Source of the DNA: Marinactinospora thermotolerans DSM 45154
GTDB lineage: Bacteria > Actinomycetota > Actinomycetes > Streptosporangiales > Streptosporangiaceae
Direction: 5' to 3'
NCBI RefSeq assembly: GCF_900167435.1
Contig: NZ_FUWS01000016.1
Span: forward strand, 3,938 to 67,937
DNA: 64,000 nt
Below are positions 1 through 28,058 of this stretch, piece by piece (position 1 is the stretch's first letter; each line of letters opens with the position of its first letter). A program made the translations under genes and the position numbers. Below the pieces are notes generated by a model that worked only from the letters and a program-made list of their open reading frames with translations, was not told the origin of the DNA and ran no database searches.

Positions 1-327
1 GTGGCAGCCGCCCTCCGGGGCGGCTGAGGATCGCAACCACCAGCAGGGCCGCGCGCGACCCCGGAGAGGTCGTGGCAGCCGTCCTCCGGGACGGCTGAGG
101 ATCGCAACAGCCTCACCACGGGGGAGCGGTCGCCTGCGATCATGTGGCAGCCGTCCTCCGGGACGGCTGAGGATCGCAACCGCCGAGGCGTCGGGTACCC
201 CGATGGCGGTGGTCGCCGTGGCAGTCGCCCTCCGGGGCGGCTGAGCGATCGCAACTACAACTGGTACTAGGGCCACCTGAGCGGGTGGACGAGGCAGCCG
301 CTCTCTGGGGCGGTTGAGGAACGCAAT
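1..327 (+). CRISPR. Type I-C CRISPR array 1 (right end only; leader is off-window)
   Basis: Five 37-38 bp repeats start at 1, 72, 144, 218 and 291, separated by spacers of 34, 35, 37 and 35 bp. The repeats at 72 and 144 are identical to those of array 2: they begin GTGGCAGCC, carry the stem GCCGTCC/GGACGGC and end GGATCGCAAC. The repeat at 1 has paired T-to-C and A-to-G changes that keep the stem. The repeat at 218 has one inserted base and that at 291 is badly decayed. Decay at the right end and the AAC 3' end imply left-to-right transcription from a leader before base 1. The true length of the array is unknown because the window cuts it. Confidence 0.95.
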
Positions 328-418
328 CGGGCGCCTCGCGAACGCGGGCGTGAGTTGCCTTATCCTCGGAAAGCGGGTCCGAGGAGTCATTTGGAGGTCG
401 TCCTCGGGCCCCGGAGAG

Positions 419-840: not shown

Positions 841-950
841 GTTCCATATGTCGATCTTTTAGGCATTTCGCGGAAACTCCAGCGGTTGTCGGCGGGGTGG
901 GCTACCGTTCCAGAGATTCCAGCTCAACGCGCTTAAAGCGGGAGGGGGAC

Positions 951-3149
951 ATGGAACTCTGGGGGCATAGCGCTGATGAGTGGGGGAGACGCCATCGGCT
1001 CGAAGATCACCTGCGTGGTACGCAGGAACGGGCACGGCGCCACGCGGAGGTGTTCGGCGCCGGCGAGCTGGCCGCCTACCTCGGGATCGTCCACGATGTC
1101 GGTAAAGGCGCCTGTTCCTGGCAAAACGGGCTGCTACGGGCCGAGGCGTCCGGCGGCCGAGTAGGGGTTCCGCACAAGCACGCCGGGACCTGGCTGGCCG
1201 ATAAGGCCGGACTGGACGTGTTCAGTGGGGTGGTGTTCGGTCACCACGGCGGGCTGCCCTCCAAAGCCGGCTTGGAGGCCGCGCTGGACGAGGCCGACAA
1301 CGAGCAGTCCTCGCTGGTCCAGGAGGCCATCGACCGGGTGGCCGCACGGGTACCCGAGATCCTTGACGGACCGGACTTTCCGGTCTGGCTTGAGGAAGCC
1401 GCGGCGCGGGATCCGCTGGTGGTCGAGGTGCTGGTGCGCATGGTCTTCAGTGCGGTGGTCGACGCCGACTTCCTCGACACCGAGGAGCACTTCGCCGCCG
1501 CGCCGCGCCGCGAGCATCCCGTGCGTGCCTGTGACCTGGCGGAGCGCTTCGAGGAAGGACTGCGAGCCAAGCTCGCCAGGCGGAAGCCCACACCGGTGGA
1601 CGGGATCCGACGCCGGGTCTACGCCCAGGCGGTCGCCGCGGCCGAGGGGCCGCAGGGGTTCTACCGCCTCCCCGCCCCGACGGGCTCGGGCAAGACCTTC
1701 GCCGCGGCCGGATTCGCCCTGCACCACGCCCACCGCCACGGCCTGCGCCGGGTGATCGTGGCAGTGCCGTTCACCGCGATCACCGAGCAGAACGCCCAGG
1801 AGTACCGGGACCTGCTGGACCGGCAGGGGGAGGAGCCGGTCGTGCTGGAGCACCACAGCGGTGTGGACCTCGACGACGGCGACGACGCCCCCGAGCACCG
1901 GTGGGCCAAACTCGCCGCGGAGAACTGGGACGCCCCCTTCGTGGTCACCACCACCGTGCGGTTGTTCGAGTCGCTGTTCGACCGCCGCCCGGCGGCCACG
2001 CGCCGCCTGCACAACCTGGCCGGGTCGGTGATCGTGCTGGACGAGGTGCAGTCCCTCCCCGATGGGATGCTGGTGCCGATCCTCTCGATGCTGCGCACCC
2101 TGACCGAGCACTTCGGGGTGACGGTGCTGCTGGCCTCGGCAACCCAGCCCGCTTTCTTCGAACTCTCCCCGCTCAGGGATATCAGCGCTCGCGACATCAT
2201 CACCGAGCCCGCGCCGCTGTACGCCGAGCTGTCCCGGGTGGACTACGAGTGGTGGTGCGACCCGGCGCCCAGCCTGCAGCAGGTCGCCGAGCGCGCCGCG
2301 CGATGTGCCTCGGTGCTGGTGGTGTGTAACACCACCGCCCAGGCCGGCGAGCTGCACCAGAAGATCCAGCGGGAGCGCGGAGCGGGCAAGGGGCCGGTAC
2401 TGCACCTGTCCACCCGAATGGTCGCCCTCCACCGTAAAAAGACCATCGAGGAGATCGCCGGGCTCAATGCCGCGGGCGCCCCGGTGGCGGTCGTCTCGAC
2501 CCAGCTGGTCGAGGCCGGGGTGGACCTGGACTTTCCAGAGGTGTTCCGTGCCTTCGCCACCGCCGAGGCGATGCAGCAGGCGGCCGGCCGCTGCAACCGC
2601 TCGGGGCACCTGGACAAGGGACGGGTGGTGGTCTTCGAGGTCGCCGGTGAGGACGGCCGCCTGCGCACCGGCGGGGAGTTCGTCTACGGGGCCGCGCTGG
2701 GGGCCACCCGCGCCTACTTCGGGCCGGGGCGGGCCCTGCCCGACGATCTGGAGGCCCTGAGCAGGTACTACCCCGTCCGGTTCACGGGCAAGGGCGTCGA
2801 AAAGCGCGGCGAGGAGATCCAAAAGGCCCGGACCGACTGTGACTTCCCCAAGACCGCCGCCCTGTTCCGGATGATCGAGGAGCACACCGTCCCCGTCGTC
2901 GTCCCCCATGCCGTCCCCGAGGCCGAATCGCGTGTCCGCCAGGTGATCGGCCTGCTGCGCCGGGGTGTGCCCGCGGGCGGGCTGTTGCGCGAACTGCGCC
3001 CCTACCTGGCCACCCTGCCCAAGGGGGCGGTGGGCAGGCAGGCCGCGGGCCTGCTCGCCCCGGTGGCGGGCGACCTGTGCGAGTGGCTGGGCGACTACGA
3101 CCCCTTGCGCGGCATCGAACTCTCCGACAGTCAGGAGTATGTGCTTTGA
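951..3149 (+). CDS. cas3: CRISPR-associated nuclease/helicase Cas3, type I-C
   Basis: Cas3 is the ssDNA nuclease and 3'-5' helicase recruited by Cascade to degrade targeted DNA. The 732-residue protein has an N-terminal HD nuclease domain with His48-Asp49 and a GHHGG motif near residue 106. A superfamily 2 helicase follows, with Walker A (APTGSGKT, ending near 249) and a DEVQ box at 364-367. HD and helicase are fused, as usual in I-C, and the length is normal. An upstream GTG at 897 is in frame, but the ATG at 951 has the GGAGGGGG site and starts a typical Cas3 N terminus. It is the first gene of the cas operon; its stop overlaps the cas5 start. Confidence 0.95.
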   Translation: MELWGHSADEWGRRHRLEDHLRGTQERARRHAEVFGAGELAAYLGIVHDVGKGACSWQNGLLRAEASGGRVGVPHKHAGTWLADKAGLDVFSGVVFGHHGGLPSKAGLEAALDEADNEQSSLVQEAIDRVAARVPEILDGPDFPVWLEEAAARDPLVVEVLVRMVFSAVVDADFLDTEEHFAAAPRREHPVRACDLAERFEEGLRAKLARRKPTPVDGIRRRVYAQAVAAAEGPQGFYRLPAPTGSGKTFAAAGFALHHAHRHGLRRVIVAVPFTAITEQNAQEYRDLLDRQGEEPVVLEHHSGVDLDDGDDAPEHRWAKLAAENWDAPFVVTTTVRLFESLFDRRPAATRRLHNLAGSVIVLDEVQSLPDGMLVPILSMLRTLTEHFGVTVLLASATQPAFFELSPLRDISARDIITEPAPLYAELSRVDYEWWCDPAPSLQQVAERAARCASVLVVCNTTAQAGELHQKIQRERGAGKGPVLHLSTRMVALHRKKTIEEIAGLNAAGAPVAVVSTQLVEAGVDLDFPEVFRAFATAEAMQQAAGRCNRSGHLDKGRVVVFEVAGEDGRLRTGGEFVYGAALGATRAYFGPGRALPDDLEALSRYYPVRFTGKGVEKRGEEIQKARTDCDFPKTAALFRMIEEHTVPVVVPHAVPEAESRVRQVIGLLRRGVPAGGLLRELRPYLATLPKGAVGRQAAGLLAPVAGDLCEWLGDYDPLRGIELSDSQEYVL

Positions 3150-3835
3150 CCACCCCCAACAGGGGCGGACCCCCGCCGCTGGCGGTCGAGGTTACCGGCC
3201 CCTATGCCTGCTTCACCCGTCCCGAGCTCAAGACCGAGCGGTTCAGCTATCCGGTGATGACCCCCTCGGCCGCCAAAGGGCTGCTGGAGGCGATCTTCTG
3301 GAAACCGGAGTTCACCTACCTCATCGAGCGCATCGAGGTGCTTTCCCCCATCGCCTGGTTCTCGGTGCGCCGCAACGAGGTCGATGAGATCACCTCTACC
3401 GACTGGGTGCGCCGTGCCATGGCCGATCCCGCAGTGCGCTTCGACGCCGAGACCAAGCGCGACCAGCGCAACATGGTCGGCCTGCGTGACGTGGCCTACC
3501 GCGTCTTCGCCCACATCCGGTTGCGCGAGCACGCCGACGCCCCCCAGGCCAAGTACCGTGACCAGTTCCGCCGCCGCGTGGAGCGCGGCGCCTGCTTCTC
3601 CCAGCCCTTCCTGGGCACCCGCGAGTTCTCCGCCTCCTTCAGCGCACCCACCGCCCGCCGCCCCATCCAGGCCAGCGAGGACTTCGGGATGATGCTGCAC
3701 AGCATCGATTACTCCGGGCCTCGCGAGACCTACCGGTGGTTCCACGCCCGCATGGACAACGGTGTGATGCAGGTGCCCGAGCAGGGGGCCGAGCTGCCCG
3801 GGGCCCCGACGGCGCGCACCGGTGGGCGGGGGTGA
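3146..3835 (+). CDS. cas5: Cas5 (Cas5d type), type I-C Cascade subunit and likely crRNA endonuclease
   Basis: In type I-C systems, which lack Cas6, Cas5 cuts the pre-crRNA at the repeat hairpin and stays on the crRNA 5' handle. The 229-residue protein has the family look: an N-terminal strand (VEVTGPYACFTRPELK), the FSYPVMTPSAAKGLLEAI segment and a central Arg-rich part. The chosen start is TTG 3146, overlapping the Cas3 stop by 4 bp, with AGGAGT 7 nt upstream; a longer reading would run into cas3. The repeat hairpin in both arrays is the expected substrate. No cas6 is present, which fits. Confidence 0.93.
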   Translation: MTTPNRGGPPPLAVEVTGPYACFTRPELKTERFSYPVMTPSAAKGLLEAIFWKPEFTYLIERIEVLSPIAWFSVRRNEVDEITSTDWVRRAMADPAVRFDAETKRDQRNMVGLRDVAYRVFAHIRLREHADAPQAKYRDQFRRRVERGACFSQPFLGTREFSASFSAPTARRPIQASEDFGMMLHSIDYSGPRETYRWFHARMDNGVMQVPEQGAELPGAPTARTGGRG

Positions 3836-5643
3836 GCGGGGTGCTCCTCAAAGCCCTGGCCGATCACGCCCCCCACGTGGCGGGGCTGCCCCCGGCCGGC
3901 TACCGCCCCCGTGCTCTGCGCTGGCGCATCCTCATCGACGAGCAAGGGCGCCCGCTCAGCCGTGACGCCGAGGGCAGGCCGGCCCCGGACGATCTGGCCG
4001 ACGCCGACAACCGCAACGGCATCCTCACCGACGCCCCCTACATCTACCGTGCAGGGACCAAACCGCCACCGATGCTGCTGGTGGACACCCTGGAGTTCGT
4101 CCTGGCCCGGCCCAAGACCGACACCGCCAAGGCCGCGGAGGAGGCCGTCCGCCGCAACGACGCCTACATCGAGCTGCTGCACCAGTGGGCCGCCACCGAG
4201 CCCGCCGACCCCACGGCCGCGGCCGTGCTGGCCTTCTTCACCAATGGGCACCATCTCGACATCACAGTGCCCGAACAGGCCAAACCCTCCGACACGGTGG
4301 CCCTGCAGGTCGCGGGGCAGCCGGGCTGGCCCCACCTGGGCCAGGCCGCCCAGGAGTGCTGGCGGCGCACCGTGACCCAGCGCAAAAGCGCCCGCGCCGG
4401 CCAGGGATACTGCCTGTCCTGCGGCCAGGAGGGCGTGCTGCTGGACACCCTGCCCGAACCCATCAAGGCCGGGGCGATCCCCACCGGCAATACCCGTGGC
4501 CGCGACGCCCAGCTGGTGTCGGTCAACAAGAGCGCCCAGGGGCGGGGCGGCCGCATCCAACTGACCGACATCCCGCTGTGCGAGCGGTGTGGCGCTGGGT
4601 CGGCCGCGGTGCTCAACGCGCTGCTGGCCGAGGAGAAACATCGCTATCGGACGGCTGACTCGGTCACGGTGTGGTGGCTGAAGGATCCGGTTCCCTTCTC
4701 TCCGCTGCGCACGCTGCGCGAGGCCCGCCCCGACCAGGTCGCTGCGGTCTTCACCGAGCTGGACCGGGCCCGCCACCCCCGGGCAGGCCGGCGGATCGAC
4801 CCCAACAAGTTCTACGCGCTCACCCTGTCGGCCAACCAGAGCCGGGTGGTCGTGCGCGACTGGGTCGAGGTCCCCCTCGAACGGGCCTTGGCCAACATCG
4901 CGGCCTGGTTCGACGACCACCGGATCCAAGACCCGCGCTCCGCGGAGCCGGTGTGTGTTCCGCTGTGGCTGATGGCGCTGAGCCTGGGGCGTGGAACAGG
5001 CGAGGGAGACAGCTCCTGGCGCTACATCCACGGTAGCGAACCCGCATACGCCGAACGCGACCTGCTGGCCTGCGCCCTGCAAGGCCCCCGGCACCGTCCG
5101 CCCGACCGGCTGCTGCAGCGCCTCATCCAGCGCGTCCGCGCCGATGGCCGGGTGGACCTGGCCCGGGCGGCCTTGCTGAGGCTGCTGCTCATCCGACGCG
5201 ACCCCGCCGAAAGGAACCGGCTGATGCCTCAGCTCAACCCCGACGACGATCGCCCCGCGGTGCTCTGCGGGCGGATCTTCGCCGTACTGGAGGACATCCA
5301 GTACTACGCCCTGCGCGACCCCCGCTCCAAGAAGGGACCCAACACCACCATCACCGACCGGTTCTTCAAACAGGCCGCCGTGGCGCCGCTGTCCCAGCTG
5401 GTGCGGCTGCGGACGAACGCCAACGGTCACCTCAAACGCCTGCGCCGCGAGGCCCCCGCAACCGCGGTGGCGCTCAGCGACCGGCTGCACGAGCTGTTCG
5501 GCCGTCTGCCCGAAGGCCCGCCGGCGACCTTGGACCTGCACGGTCAGGGCCTGTTCATCGTGGGCTACCACCAGCAGCGCGCCGCCACCCGCGCGGCCCA
5601 GCGAGCAAACCGCACCACCACCCCTGAGGAGAACAACACGTGA
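3832..5643 (+). CDS. cas8c: Cas8c (Csd1), large subunit of type I-C Cascade
   Basis: Cas8c recognises the PAM and helps recruit Cas3; in many I-C systems an internal start within cas8c also yields the small subunit Cas11. The 603-residue protein begins VSGVLLKALADHA, the usual Csd1 N terminus. It carries two CxxC pairs, Cys194/Cys197 and Cys250/Cys253, which probably bind zinc. GTG 3832 overlaps the cas5 stop; a GTG three codons later is an alternative. Its stop overlaps the cas7 GTG. The internal Cas11 start was not located with confidence. Confidence 0.93.
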   Translation: MSGVLLKALADHAPHVAGLPPAGYRPRALRWRILIDEQGRPLSRDAEGRPAPDDLADADNRNGILTDAPYIYRAGTKPPPMLLVDTLEFVLARPKTDTAKAAEEAVRRNDAYIELLHQWAATEPADPTAAAVLAFFTNGHHLDITVPEQAKPSDTVALQVAGQPGWPHLGQAAQECWRRTVTQRKSARAGQGYCLSCGQEGVLLDTLPEPIKAGAIPTGNTRGRDAQLVSVNKSAQGRGGRIQLTDIPLCERCGAGSAAVLNALLAEEKHRYRTADSVTVWWLKDPVPFSPLRTLREARPDQVAAVFTELDRARHPRAGRRIDPNKFYALTLSANQSRVVVRDWVEVPLERALANIAAWFDDHRIQDPRSAEPVCVPLWLMALSLGRGTGEGDSSWRYIHGSEPAYAERDLLACALQGPRHRPPDRLLQRLIQRVRADGRVDLARAALLRLLLIRRDPAERNRLMPQLNPDDDRPAVLCGRIFAVLEDIQYYALRDPRSKKGPNTTITDRFFKQAAVAPLSQLVRLRTNANGHLKRLRREAPATAVALSDRLHELFGRLPEGPPATLDLHGQGLFIVGYHQQRAATRAAQRANRTTTPEENNT

Positions 5644-6553
5644 GCACGCCCAGCCCGTACCTGGACCCCGCCCGCAAGCACGACTTCGTCTTCTTCTTCG
5701 ACGTGCGCGACGGCAACCCCAACGGCGATCCCGACGCCGGCGGCATGCCCCGCACCGACCCCGAGACCGGGCAGGGCCTGGTCACCGACGTGGCCATCAA
5801 ACGCAAGATCCGCAACACCATCCCGCTGTTCAAACACGGCGAGCCCGGTTTCGACATCTACGTGGAGGCCGGGGTATCGCTGAACTCCCAGCACGAGCGT
5901 GCCTACGCCGCCCTGGGCCTCGAAGGCGACAAGAAGAACAAGAAGCAGACCGCGGTCAACCAGCCCCGCGCCCGGGACTGGATGTGCGAGACCTTCTTCG
6001 ACGTGCGCATGTTCGGCGCGGTCATGAGCACCGGCGACAAACCCGCCGGGCGGGTCCAGGGCCCGATGCAGCTCACCTTCTCCCGGTCGTTGCACCGGGT
6101 GCTCGACCAGGAGCACGGCATCACCCGCGTCACCCAGACCAAGACCGAGGACACCGAGCAGGGCGAATCCACCGAGATGGGCACCAAGCACACCGTTCCC
6201 TACGGCCTCTACCAGGGATTCGGGCACTTCAGCGCCCCGCTGGCCCAGCGCACCGGTGTCACCACAGCCGACCTGGAGGCCTTCTGGCGGGCCATGACCA
6301 TGATGTTCGAGCACGACCGGGCCGCCTCCCGCGGCGAGATGGCATTGCGCGGCCTCTACGTGTTCACCCACGACGACGCCTTCGGCCGCGCCCCGGCCCA
6401 CACCCTGTTCGACCGTGTCCAGGCCCGCCTCACCGACCAGCCCCAGGGCGCGGACGAGCGGGCCCGGGTGGTGCGCTCCTTCGACGAGTACAAGATCACC
6501 GTCGACCAGGAGGGCCTGCCCGAAGGCATCACGCTGACGCCACTGGTGGACGG

Positions 6554-6557
<4 letters not shown>
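5640..6557 (+). CDS. cas7: Cas7 (Csd2), type I-C Cascade backbone
   Basis: Several Cas7 copies coat the crRNA spacer. The 305-residue protein matches Csd2: an early FFFDVRDGNPNGDPD segment, VTDVAIKRKIRNTI soon after, and the FFDVRMFGAVMSTG block in the middle. GTG 5640 overlaps the cas8c stop and GAGGAG lies about 8 nt upstream. Its own stop overlaps the cas4 GTG, so these genes are translationally coupled. No missing residues or frameshift are seen. Confidence 0.95.
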
Positions 6558-8912
<2,355 letters not shown>

Positions 8913-9047
8913 TTAAGAAGAAGGGAGCCCGCCCGAGGTGGCAGCCGTCCTCCGGGACGGCTGAGGATCGCAACCTTCCATCCCGCGGCGGTGTCGGCAG
9001 CGCGCCAGCAGTGGCAGCCGTCCTCCGGGACGGCTGAGGATCGCAAC

Positions 9048-9341
9048 CCCCGCTCCTCCCTGATGTGGATCGGGTCCCGGGAGAGTGGCAGCCGTCCTCC
9101 GGGACGGCTGAGGATCGCAACTGCTTCCGCTGAGGTGGTGTTGGCGGTGGGTGGGGGGTGGCAGCCGTCCTCCGGGACGGCTGAGGATCGCAACCCCCGC
9201 TCCTCCCTGATGTGGATCGGGTCCCGGGAGAGTGGCAGCCGTCCTCCGGGACGGCTGAGGATCGCAACTGCTTCCGCTGAGGTGGTGTTGGCGGTGGGTG
9301 GGGGGTGGCAGCCGTCCTCCGGGACGGCTGAGGATCGCAAC
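9048..9341 (+). repeat. 147-bp perfect tandem duplication inside CRISPR array 2
   Basis: Bases 9048-9194 (spacer, repeat, spacer, repeat) are repeated base for base at 9195-9341. Two different spacers are therefore present twice in the same order, showing duplication of a two-unit block by unequal recombination or slippage. Confidence 0.95.
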
Positions 9342-9521
9342 CTCAAGGGGAAGGTCCTCGGCCTCGGCCTCGGGGGCGTGGCAGCCGTCCTCCGGGACGG
9401 CTGAGGATCGCAACCCAGTCTGATCTCCGGGCCACCGTGTTCCAGGGGTGTGGCAGCCGTCCTCCGGGACGGCTGAGGATCGCAACATGGCCACGATCGG
9501 GAGGCCGTCTCGGACCGCGTC

Positions 9522-9633
9522 GTGGCAGTCGCCCTCCGGGGGGGCGTGGGGGATCGTGAGCACCGAACTTCTAATCCGGTGGTCGTGGGTTCGAGGTGGC
9601 AGCCGCCCCTCTGAAGTGGCTGGGGGCCGCGAC
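9522..9633 (+). repeat. Decayed terminal repeats of array 2 enclosing a tRNA-like spacer
   Basis: A decayed repeat at about 9522-9560 begins GTGGCAGTCGCCCTCCGGG and ends GGATCG plus changes. A second at about 9596-9633 begins GTGGCAGCCGCCCCTC and ends near CCGCGAC. The interval between them is 35-37 bp, the spacer length of this system. It matches the tRNA-Arg(UCU) gene at 9871-9943 in 33 of 38 positions when counted from 9558 to 9595. Confidence 0.85.
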
Positions 9634-9870
9634 GACCGCGTACAGCCTCGTCCCGGAGGCGTCTGGGAAAGGGGCGGCGCCCTGGGGGTGGATCCCGGGC
9701 GCCCGCGCGTCCGCCCGGGGTGAGGGGCGTGGTGGCTGCGGGGCGTCTCCGGAGCGGCACAGGGACACGCGGGGGACGAACACGGGGCCGGTGGGGACGA
9801 AACGGGTGTCGGGAACGGGGAACCCCAGGCCGGGGCCGCGCTGGAGTGAGGTTGACCTGGGGTTTCGGGG

Positions 9871-9943
9871 CGCACCCGGCAGGATTCGAACCTGCGACCA
9901 TCGGATTAGAAGTCCGGTGCTCTATCCACTGAGCTACGGGTGC
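9871..9943 (-). tRNA. tRNA-Arg (anticodon TCT)
   Basis: The minus strand folds as a full 73-nt tRNA. The acceptor stem is GCACCCG/CGGGTGC, the D arm GCTC/GAGC, the anticodon loop CTTCTAA with TCT at 34-36, and the T arm GCAGG-TTCGAAT-CCTGC. The discriminator is G and CCA is not encoded. It reads AGA/AGG codons, which are rare in such GC-rich genomes. It lies 240 bp beyond array 2, in the opposite orientation. Only the outermost anticodon-stem pair (27-43) is a mismatch. Confidence 0.96.
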
Positions 9944-26484: not shown

Positions 26485-26925
26485 ATGGCGTTGTGGGTTG
26501 GTTGGTTGCTCGTGGCCCTGGTGTTGGGCGTGGCCGAGATCTTCACGCTGACCCTGTCCCTGGGCCTGATCGCCGCCGCCGCGTTGGTCGCCGGGGTGGT
26601 CGGAGCCCTTGGGGCCGGGGTGATCGTGCAGGTGCTCGCCTTCGCCGTCGCCGCCGCGGCGGGGTTGCTCGTCGTCCGACCGATCGCGCGCCGTCATCTC
26701 AGCCAGCCACCGCCGTTGCGTTCGGGGACCGCCGCCCTCGTGGGCAGGACGGCGGTGGTCGTCGAGGAGGTCACCGCGGAGCAGGGGCGTATCAGGCTGT
26801 CCGGTGAGGAGTGGTCGGCCCGGGCCCTGGACGAGACCCAGAGCATCCCGGCCGGAAGCCGGGTCGACGTGATGGAGATCGAGGGCGCGACGGCCATCGT
26901 CTATCCCCACGACCAGCTTCCGTGA
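26485..26925 (+). CDS. NfeD-like membrane protein
   Basis: The 146-residue protein has three to four N-terminal hydrophobic helices (residues 1-70) and a C-terminal OB-fold-like domain (GRTAVVVEEV...GRIRLSGEEWSARA) typical of NfeD. NfeD proteins act with SPFH proteins in membrane microdomains; the next gene, 47 bp away, is an SPFH protein, which supports the call. ATG 26485 has AGGGAGG upstream. Confidence 0.9.
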   Translation: MALWVGWLLVALVLGVAEIFTLTLSLGLIAAAALVAGVVGALGAGVIVQVLAFAVAAAAGLLVVRPIARRHLSQPPPLRSGTAALVGRTAVVVEEVTAEQGRIRLSGEEWSARALDETQSIPAGSRVDVMEIEGATAIVYPHDQLP

Positions 26926-26972
26926 CCACACCCCTGAGCCCCATCCCCGGTATCCGCTAAGGCAGGAAACAG

Positions 26973-28058
26973 ATGTTCGGGATACAAATCGTCTTCCTGG
27001 TCCTCGCGGCGATCATCATCGTCGCGGTCGTCTCCACGGTACGGATCGTGCCCCAGGCCCGCGCCTACAACATCGAGCGCTTCGGCCGTTACATGCGCAC
27101 CCTGCAACCGGGACTGAACTTCATCATCCCGGGTGTGGACCGGGTCAACACCAAGTTCGACCTGCGCGAGCAGGTGTTCTCCTCGCGTCCCCAGCCGGTG
27201 ATCACCGAGGACAACCTGGTCGTCAACATCGACACCGTCCTGTACTACCAGATCACCGAACCGCGTGCCGCGGCCTACGAGGTCGCCAACTACCTCCAGG
27301 CCATCGATCAGCTCACGGTCACCACGCTGCGCAACGTCATCGGCGGCATGGACCTGGAGCGCACGCTCACCTCGCGCGAGGAGATCAACTCCCGGCTGCG
27401 CGGGGTGCTCGACGACGCCACCGGCAAGTGGGGCATCCGGGTCAACCGGGTGGAGATCAAGGCGATCGACCCGCCTCCCACCATCAAGGAGGCGATGGAG
27501 AAGCAGATGCGGGCCGAGCGCGACAAGCGCGCCGCCATCCTGCACGCCGAGGGCGAGCGGCAGTCGCGCATCCTCAAGGCCGAGGGCGCTCGCCAACAGG
27601 CGATCCTGGAGGCTCAGGGAGAGCAGCAGGCGGCGATCCTGCGTGCCGACGGCGAGGCCAAGGCGATCGAGCGTGTCTTCCAGGCGGTCCACCGCAACGA
27701 CGCCGACTCCAAGCTCCTCGCCTACAAGTACCTGGAGACGCTGCCGACGCTCGCCAAGGGCGAGGGCAACACGTTCTGGGTCATCCCCGGCGAGTTGACG
27801 CAGGCCATCCGCAGCGTCACCCGGGCCTTCGCCGGCGAGGACGACGGTGCCGCGGAGCGGCCCGCCCCCGCGGGGAAGGAGGGGGCCACCGAGGAGGGGA
27901 CGACACCACAGCTCACGGCGGGGAAGATGGGCGACGAGGCGGTGCGGGCCGCCGACGAGGCGGCCGAACGCGCGGCCGAGGCGGTGGCCGACGCCCGGGC
28001 CGAGGCCGACGCGGCGGCGAGCCCCGCCACGCTGCCCGGCCAGCGCAGACAGGACTGA
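26973..28058 (+). CDS. SPFH/band 7 protein (QmcA/stomatin type)
   Basis: This membrane scaffold of the stomatin/prohibitin group oligomerises at the inner face of membrane microdomains. The 361 residues begin with one membrane helix (about 4-24), then the SPFH domain (RIVPQARAYNIERFGRY...). A long Ala/Glu/Arg-rich coiled coil (about 170-235, with ERQSRILKAEGARQQAILEA) follows, then a conserved LPTLAKGEGNTFWVIP segment. The acidic, Ala-rich C-terminal tail is low complexity. It pairs with the NfeD-like gene just upstream. Confidence 0.93.
   Translation: MFGIQIVFLVLAAIIIVAVVSTVRIVPQARAYNIERFGRYMRTLQPGLNFIIPGVDRVNTKFDLREQVFSSRPQPVITEDNLVVNIDTVLYYQITEPRAAAYEVANYLQAIDQLTVTTLRNVIGGMDLERTLTSREEINSRLRGVLDDATGKWGIRVNRVEIKAIDPPPTIKEAMEKQMRAERDKRAAILHAEGERQSRILKAEGARQQAILEAQGEQQAAILRADGEAKAIERVFQAVHRNDADSKLLAYKYLETLPTLAKGEGNTFWVIPGELTQAIRSVTRAFAGEDDGAAERPAPAGKEGATEEGTTPQLTAGKMGDEAVRAADEAAERAAEAVADARAEADAAASPATLPGQRRQD

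Follow-up and report, generated by a model that had tools for sequence, protein, structure and literature searches.

The terminal spacer of a CRISPR array in Marinactinospora thermotolerans DSM 45154 is a genuine, very old and decayed type I-C spacer, and it matches the host gene for tRNA-Arg(UCU) that lies beside the array. The most probable reading, to which a probability of roughly 0.6 is assigned, is that this spacer came from a host-like tRNA-Arg(UCU) sequence, drifted together with its flanking repeats and persists as a tolerated relic. The stretch of DNA analyzed (hereafter the window) comprises 64,000 nucleotides of a 5.66-Mb actinomycete genome, and the features discussed are collected in Table 1.

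Table 1. Positions in the window of the CRISPR-Cas locus, its terminal unit and the matching tRNA gene
Feature	Position	Strand	Remarks
CRISPR array 1	1-328	+	Same repeat family as array 2; upstream part assembled only as a run of N
Type I-C operon cas3-cas5c-cas8c-cas7c-cas4-cas1-cas2	897-8516	+	Pfam and PADLOC; every open reading frame intact
CRISPR array 2	8648-9633	+	12 intact and 2 decayed repeats, 13 spacers; leader side adjoins cas2
Decayed penultimate repeat, 39 nt	9522-9560	+	6-8 substitutions and 1-2 gap columns relative to the older/modern repeat
Terminal (oldest) spacer of array 2	9561-9595	+	tRNA-sense; 30/35 identical to host tRNA-Arg(UCU)
Decayed terminal repeat	9596-9633	+	8-10 substitutions, nearly all transitions
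tRNA-Arg(UCU)	9869-9943	-	ARAGORN and Rfam; 3' end faces the CRISPR locus
tRNA segment matched by the spacer	9885-9922	-	End of D arm, anticodon arm, variable loop, 5' half of T arm

The cas operon lies between the two arrays, and both its gene set and the I-C signature proteins recognized by Pfam and PADLOC place it in type I-C. Among named relatives, the closest Cas1 proteins were those of Nocardiopsis and Marinitenerispora. A run of N immediately upstream of the window (L068:2640-3937) conceals most of array 1, its newest spacers included. Within array 2, two neighboring repeat-spacer units are exactly duplicated in tandem (9048-9341, 147 bp), such that the spacers at 9048 and 9195 are identical, as are those at 9122 and 9269. 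In Nocardia sp. CNY236 (L121:10797-11052), two spacers of one array lie 220 bp apart and differ by a single base, which is likely the product of array duplication followed by point drift.

Array 2 closes with a repeat, a spacer and a second repeat that are in register with the neighboring units. The terminal spacer is 35 nt long, and the remaining spacers of the array measure 34-37 nt. Both its length and its position between two in-register repeats, although these are decayed, identify the segment as a spacer and not a tRNA fragment, as originally predicted. Given that it is placed at the trailer end of array 2, this spacer was among the first to be acquired. The penultimate repeat ends in GAG and not AAC, and these 3 nt lengthen the match to the tRNA gene.

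A repeat search returned the inverted pair 9558-9594/9886-9922, spanning 37 nt at 89% identity (33/37, or 33/38 when base 9595 is counted). The match covers the entire spacer except its last base and extends 3 nt (the GAG) into the preceding repeat; the mismatches fall at spacer positions 6, 19, 26, 27 and 35, and all five are transitions. When the terminal unit was compared with the whole genome, it matched only itself, the other array repeats and one tRNA gene (E = 1.3e-6). The original prediction of a tRNA-sense match over 33 of 38 bases of 9558-9595 was thus borne out by both approaches, and of the tRNA-Arg genes in the genome only that for tRNA-Arg(UCU) was hit. In a pattern scan of the genome for tRNA-Arg(UCU) allowing up to 3 mismatches, this gene was likewise the single one detected. 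By a binomial estimate, matches of at least 30/35 would arise by chance ∼7e-6 times per genome and ∼4e-10 times within 300 bp. Chance is excluded as the origin of the match, and the segment is a self-targeting spacer in the sense of matching its own chromosome at a level (E = 1.3e-6) beyond chance.

The tRNA-Arg(UCU) gene adjoins cobD in the family, where it is an integration hotspot. Pieces of the tRNA 3' end starting with CTTCTAATCCG recur outside tRNA genes in several family genomes, with unrelated DNA upstream of them, and were read as att remnants. Loci at which stacked att remnants and tyrosine recombinases recur were observed in G030, G255, G389, G399, G102, G108, G049 and G090. In G102, an integrase of the tyrosine recombinase type (26569-27069) lies beside the tRNA at 27444, Cas1 is 92% identical to that of the host, and the cassette starts directly after an att remnant. 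In G399, a similar integrase (5143921-5144436) lies beside the tRNA at 5144801, and a related I-C system (cas1 at 5072650) is situated between an att remnant at 5057964 and this integrase-flanked tRNA; the intervening 87 kb is apparently an integrated element carrying the I-C system. That mobile elements in the family attach at tRNA-Arg(UCU) is evident from att remnants and integrases, in line with the original remark that phages often use tRNA 3' parts for attachment.

Given that G023 has the gene order methyltransferase, tRNA, cobD without a CRISPR cassette, the cassette was inserted between the methyltransferase and the tRNA in M. thermotolerans. It adjoins the 3' end of the hotspot tRNA, and its arrival by integration is putative; a search beside the cassette in the host genome returned neither an integrase nor an att remnant. 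The proximity of spacer and target, which the original prediction had singled out, is indeed unusual but becomes less puzzling with the CRISPR-Cas locus sitting at the 3' end of a hotspot tRNA.

The differences between spacer and tRNA were calibrated against the drift of the flanking repeats. These differ at 14 of 75 positions from the older repeat forms of array 1, mostly by transitions, and the divergence of the spacer from the tRNA (5/35) is similar (Fisher p = 0.79). With a source identical to the host gene, repeat-like drift would produce 6.5 differences, and 5 were observed. Had source and host tRNA shared 84-87% identity, 5 or fewer differences would be seen only 2-4% of the time, a calibration that is rough in that it draws on two short repeats and on a starting sequence that is itself inferred. 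Because the flanking repeats drifted to a similar degree, the mismatches between spacer and tRNA need no foreign source, and the calibration speaks for the host gene, or for a near-identical att copy, rather than for a phage tRNA of the typical kind. The spacer was therefore probably derived from the host gene, or else from an att copy borne by an element that had integrated at this site, two candidates between which drift cannot discriminate. In the mechanism proposed, the donor would have been a tRNA-Arg(UCU) sequence with no or very few differences from the host gene, located either in the chromosome next to the array or, as an att copy, in an integrative element inserting at that tRNA; the spacer would subsequently have drifted along with the repeats. 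That the sole genomic match is the adjacent gene was counted in favor of a host-like source. Counted against the host gene was that GAG and ATA, the trinucleotides that would precede the protospacer, are both abnormal as I-C PAMs, so that acquisition in the present orientation would be off-rule. On the opposite strand, a TTC lies exactly at the far border of the protospacer and is kept as GAG in 9593-9595. It may be speculated that the spacer was inserted in flipped orientation and kept the PAM, which would account for its acquisition without autoimmunity.

The original prediction had looked to a phage or plasmid for the spacer, and derivation from an element that carried a tRNA-Arg(UCU) gene or a long-core attP, the likeness to the host then reflecting tRNA conservation, is a possible but rather doubtful alternative. 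Mobile elements supply most I-C spacers (PMC7913775), phage tRNA genes reach 89.5% identity over 38 nt, and some att remnants of genus g50 match a 40-nt tract that includes bases upstream of the usual core. In addition, G occurs as a natural tRNA variant both at spacer position 35 and at tRNA position 43. Against this, no exact source was present in IMG/VR, the INPHARED phages or PLSDB, and pattern scans of IMG/VR with the spacer, relaxed at its mismatch sites, and with a 27-nt core were without a match. Full-length phage matches were mostly annotated tRNA genes of 84-89.5% identity, for the most part no better than the host gene, and were read as conserved tRNA; blastn against phages and plasmids also returned unannotated matches of a similar level and a few shorter fragments. 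Within 3 mismatches over 34 nt, the 395 genomes of the class contained nothing besides the spacer itself. Weighing against a host-like source, the best tRNA match among 199 relatives (34/37, genus g57) was slightly better than the host gene. A foreign source would moreover require a coincidental match to the single tRNA gene adjoining the array, whereas drift accounts for every difference from the host gene. The reading of the segment not as a spacer but as a duplicated att site or a tRNA pseudogene adjoining the array accords with the position of the locus at a tRNA integration hotspot but is highly improbable: the segment runs opposite to the tRNA, does not include the tRNA 3' end, is as long as a spacer and is bounded on both sides by repeats in register with the array. 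An att duplication was rejected on orientation and register.

With regard to targeting competence, TTC is the most common I-C PAM (PMC7913775, PMC8482600). The trinucleotide preceding the protospacer in the tRNA sense is GAG, or ATA with 9558 as the first spacer base, in agreement with the missing TTC noted originally. Effective self-targeting would call for a 5' TTC, a PAM that is canonical and not derived from the host system. A PAM of the system itself was not derivable because arrays 1 and 2 gave no confident protospacers, their other spacers having only weak phage matches; the arrays of two relatives yielded no PAM-informative matches. The 8-nt crRNA handle is altered at 3 positions, from AUCGCAAC to AUCGUGAG, and the handle-forming end of the repeat from ATCGCAAC to ATCGTGAG. 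Any crRNA still made from the unit would have tRNA sense and be directed at the template strand of the tRNA gene. Interference would not be expected with GAG in place of TTC, five mismatches and a mutated handle-forming repeat, and to judge from these sequence features the spacer looks disarmed. The passage of PMC6990116 that cites Stern et al. (2010) gives as grounds for non-effective self-targeting that no PAM is apparent, that adjacent repeats are mutated and that pairing with the repeat is extended, and all three are present at the terminal unit. On these grounds, as given in that passage, the spacer is best read as a tolerated self-matching relic, which would have no present function.

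Alternatively, the degenerate unit might retain a regulatory role. A CreA-like guide, in which a crRNA-like RNA from this unit would direct Cascade to the repression of tRNA-Arg(UCU) or of a linked toxin in the manner of CreTA, is quite unlikely. Two degenerate repeats surround a partly matching spacer near a cas locus; spacer positions 1-5 and 7-18 match, such that the sole early mismatch coincides with the flipped-out position 6, comparable with the CreA seed (PMC8501985); and CreT of H. hispanica sequesters tRNA-Arg(UCU). As a functional ALTERNATIVES, however, the unit shares with CreTA its repeats, partial match and tRNA link but fails in PAM, handle and conservation. In CreTA, a PAM-flanked seed match lies in the promoter that drives a linked toxin RNA; the match found here is within the tRNA gene, preceded by GAG and not a TTC PAM. 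The 5' handle, which CreTA keeps in its degenerate repeat, is here changed at 3 of 8 nt, no similar unit was detected among ∼20 related I-C loci or the 395 class genomes, and silencing of the sole detected UCU tRNA would be expected to be harmful. No tRNA likeness was revealed by motif or strong similarity among 486 unique spacers, apart from two partial matches of 13 and 18 nt, in a set drawn from 24 sequence stretches that included the window, except for its decayed terminal unit, and represented some relatives twice. It is very unlikely that the I-C Cascade uses the unit as a co-opted CreA-like guide to tune or guard the sole detected tRNA-Arg(UCU), by repression or by blocking attB; if it did, the guarded tRNA would be the attachment site of competing mobile elements.

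CRISPR-associated transposons include some with atypical guides that target tRNA genes, which a degenerate terminal repeat and a tRNA-matching spacer resemble. That the unit is the homing guide of such a transposon, aimed at the tRNA gene, is nonetheless exceedingly improbable: Cas3 is present, the I-C interference and adaptation operon is intact and no transposon end was identified. A TniQ search of the host genome was also without a match, as was its control, which matched nowhere.

A tolerated relic of this sort, a decayed self-matching spacer, is of a known and ordinary kind; its target and proximity are unusual, and its setting is interesting. With the non-effective self-targeting spacers of Stern et al. 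(2010), as described in the passage of PMC6990116 concerned, it shares the own-chromosome match, lack of a PAM, mutated repeats and a match running into the repeat. It differs from the class described there in targeting a tRNA gene adjacent to its array and in being itself decayed. The hisS-matching spacer of the type I-E system of Pelobacter carbinolicus is similarly old, leader-distal, self-matching and directed at the translation machinery; that spacer, however, targets the gene for histidyl-tRNA synthetase and appears active, whereas the present one targets a tRNA gene and looks disarmed (PMC6990116). CreTA also has degenerate repeats, a partly matching spacer and a link to tRNA-Arg(UCU), but unlike CreTA the present unit has no PAM, its handle is not conserved and no counterpart was detected in related loci (PMC8501985); no toxin gene was found here, creT not having been sought systematically. 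The I-C systems on pKLC102 islands of Pseudomonas aeruginosa provide a precedent for I-C on an integrating element, with TTC as PAM, although element and host are different. There, 44% of spacers have matches in sequenced elements, chiefly phages and prophages (PMC7913775), in contrast to the lack of a confident foreign match here.

In summary, the terminal unit of array 2 is a clear CRISPR spacer fossil directed against a tRNA gene, and its own repeats allow its drift after acquisition to be measured. The find also points to I-C CRISPR-Cas loci within the tRNA-Arg(UCU) hotspot of actinomycetes and raises the question of whether island-borne CRISPR systems ever record the attachment site itself.
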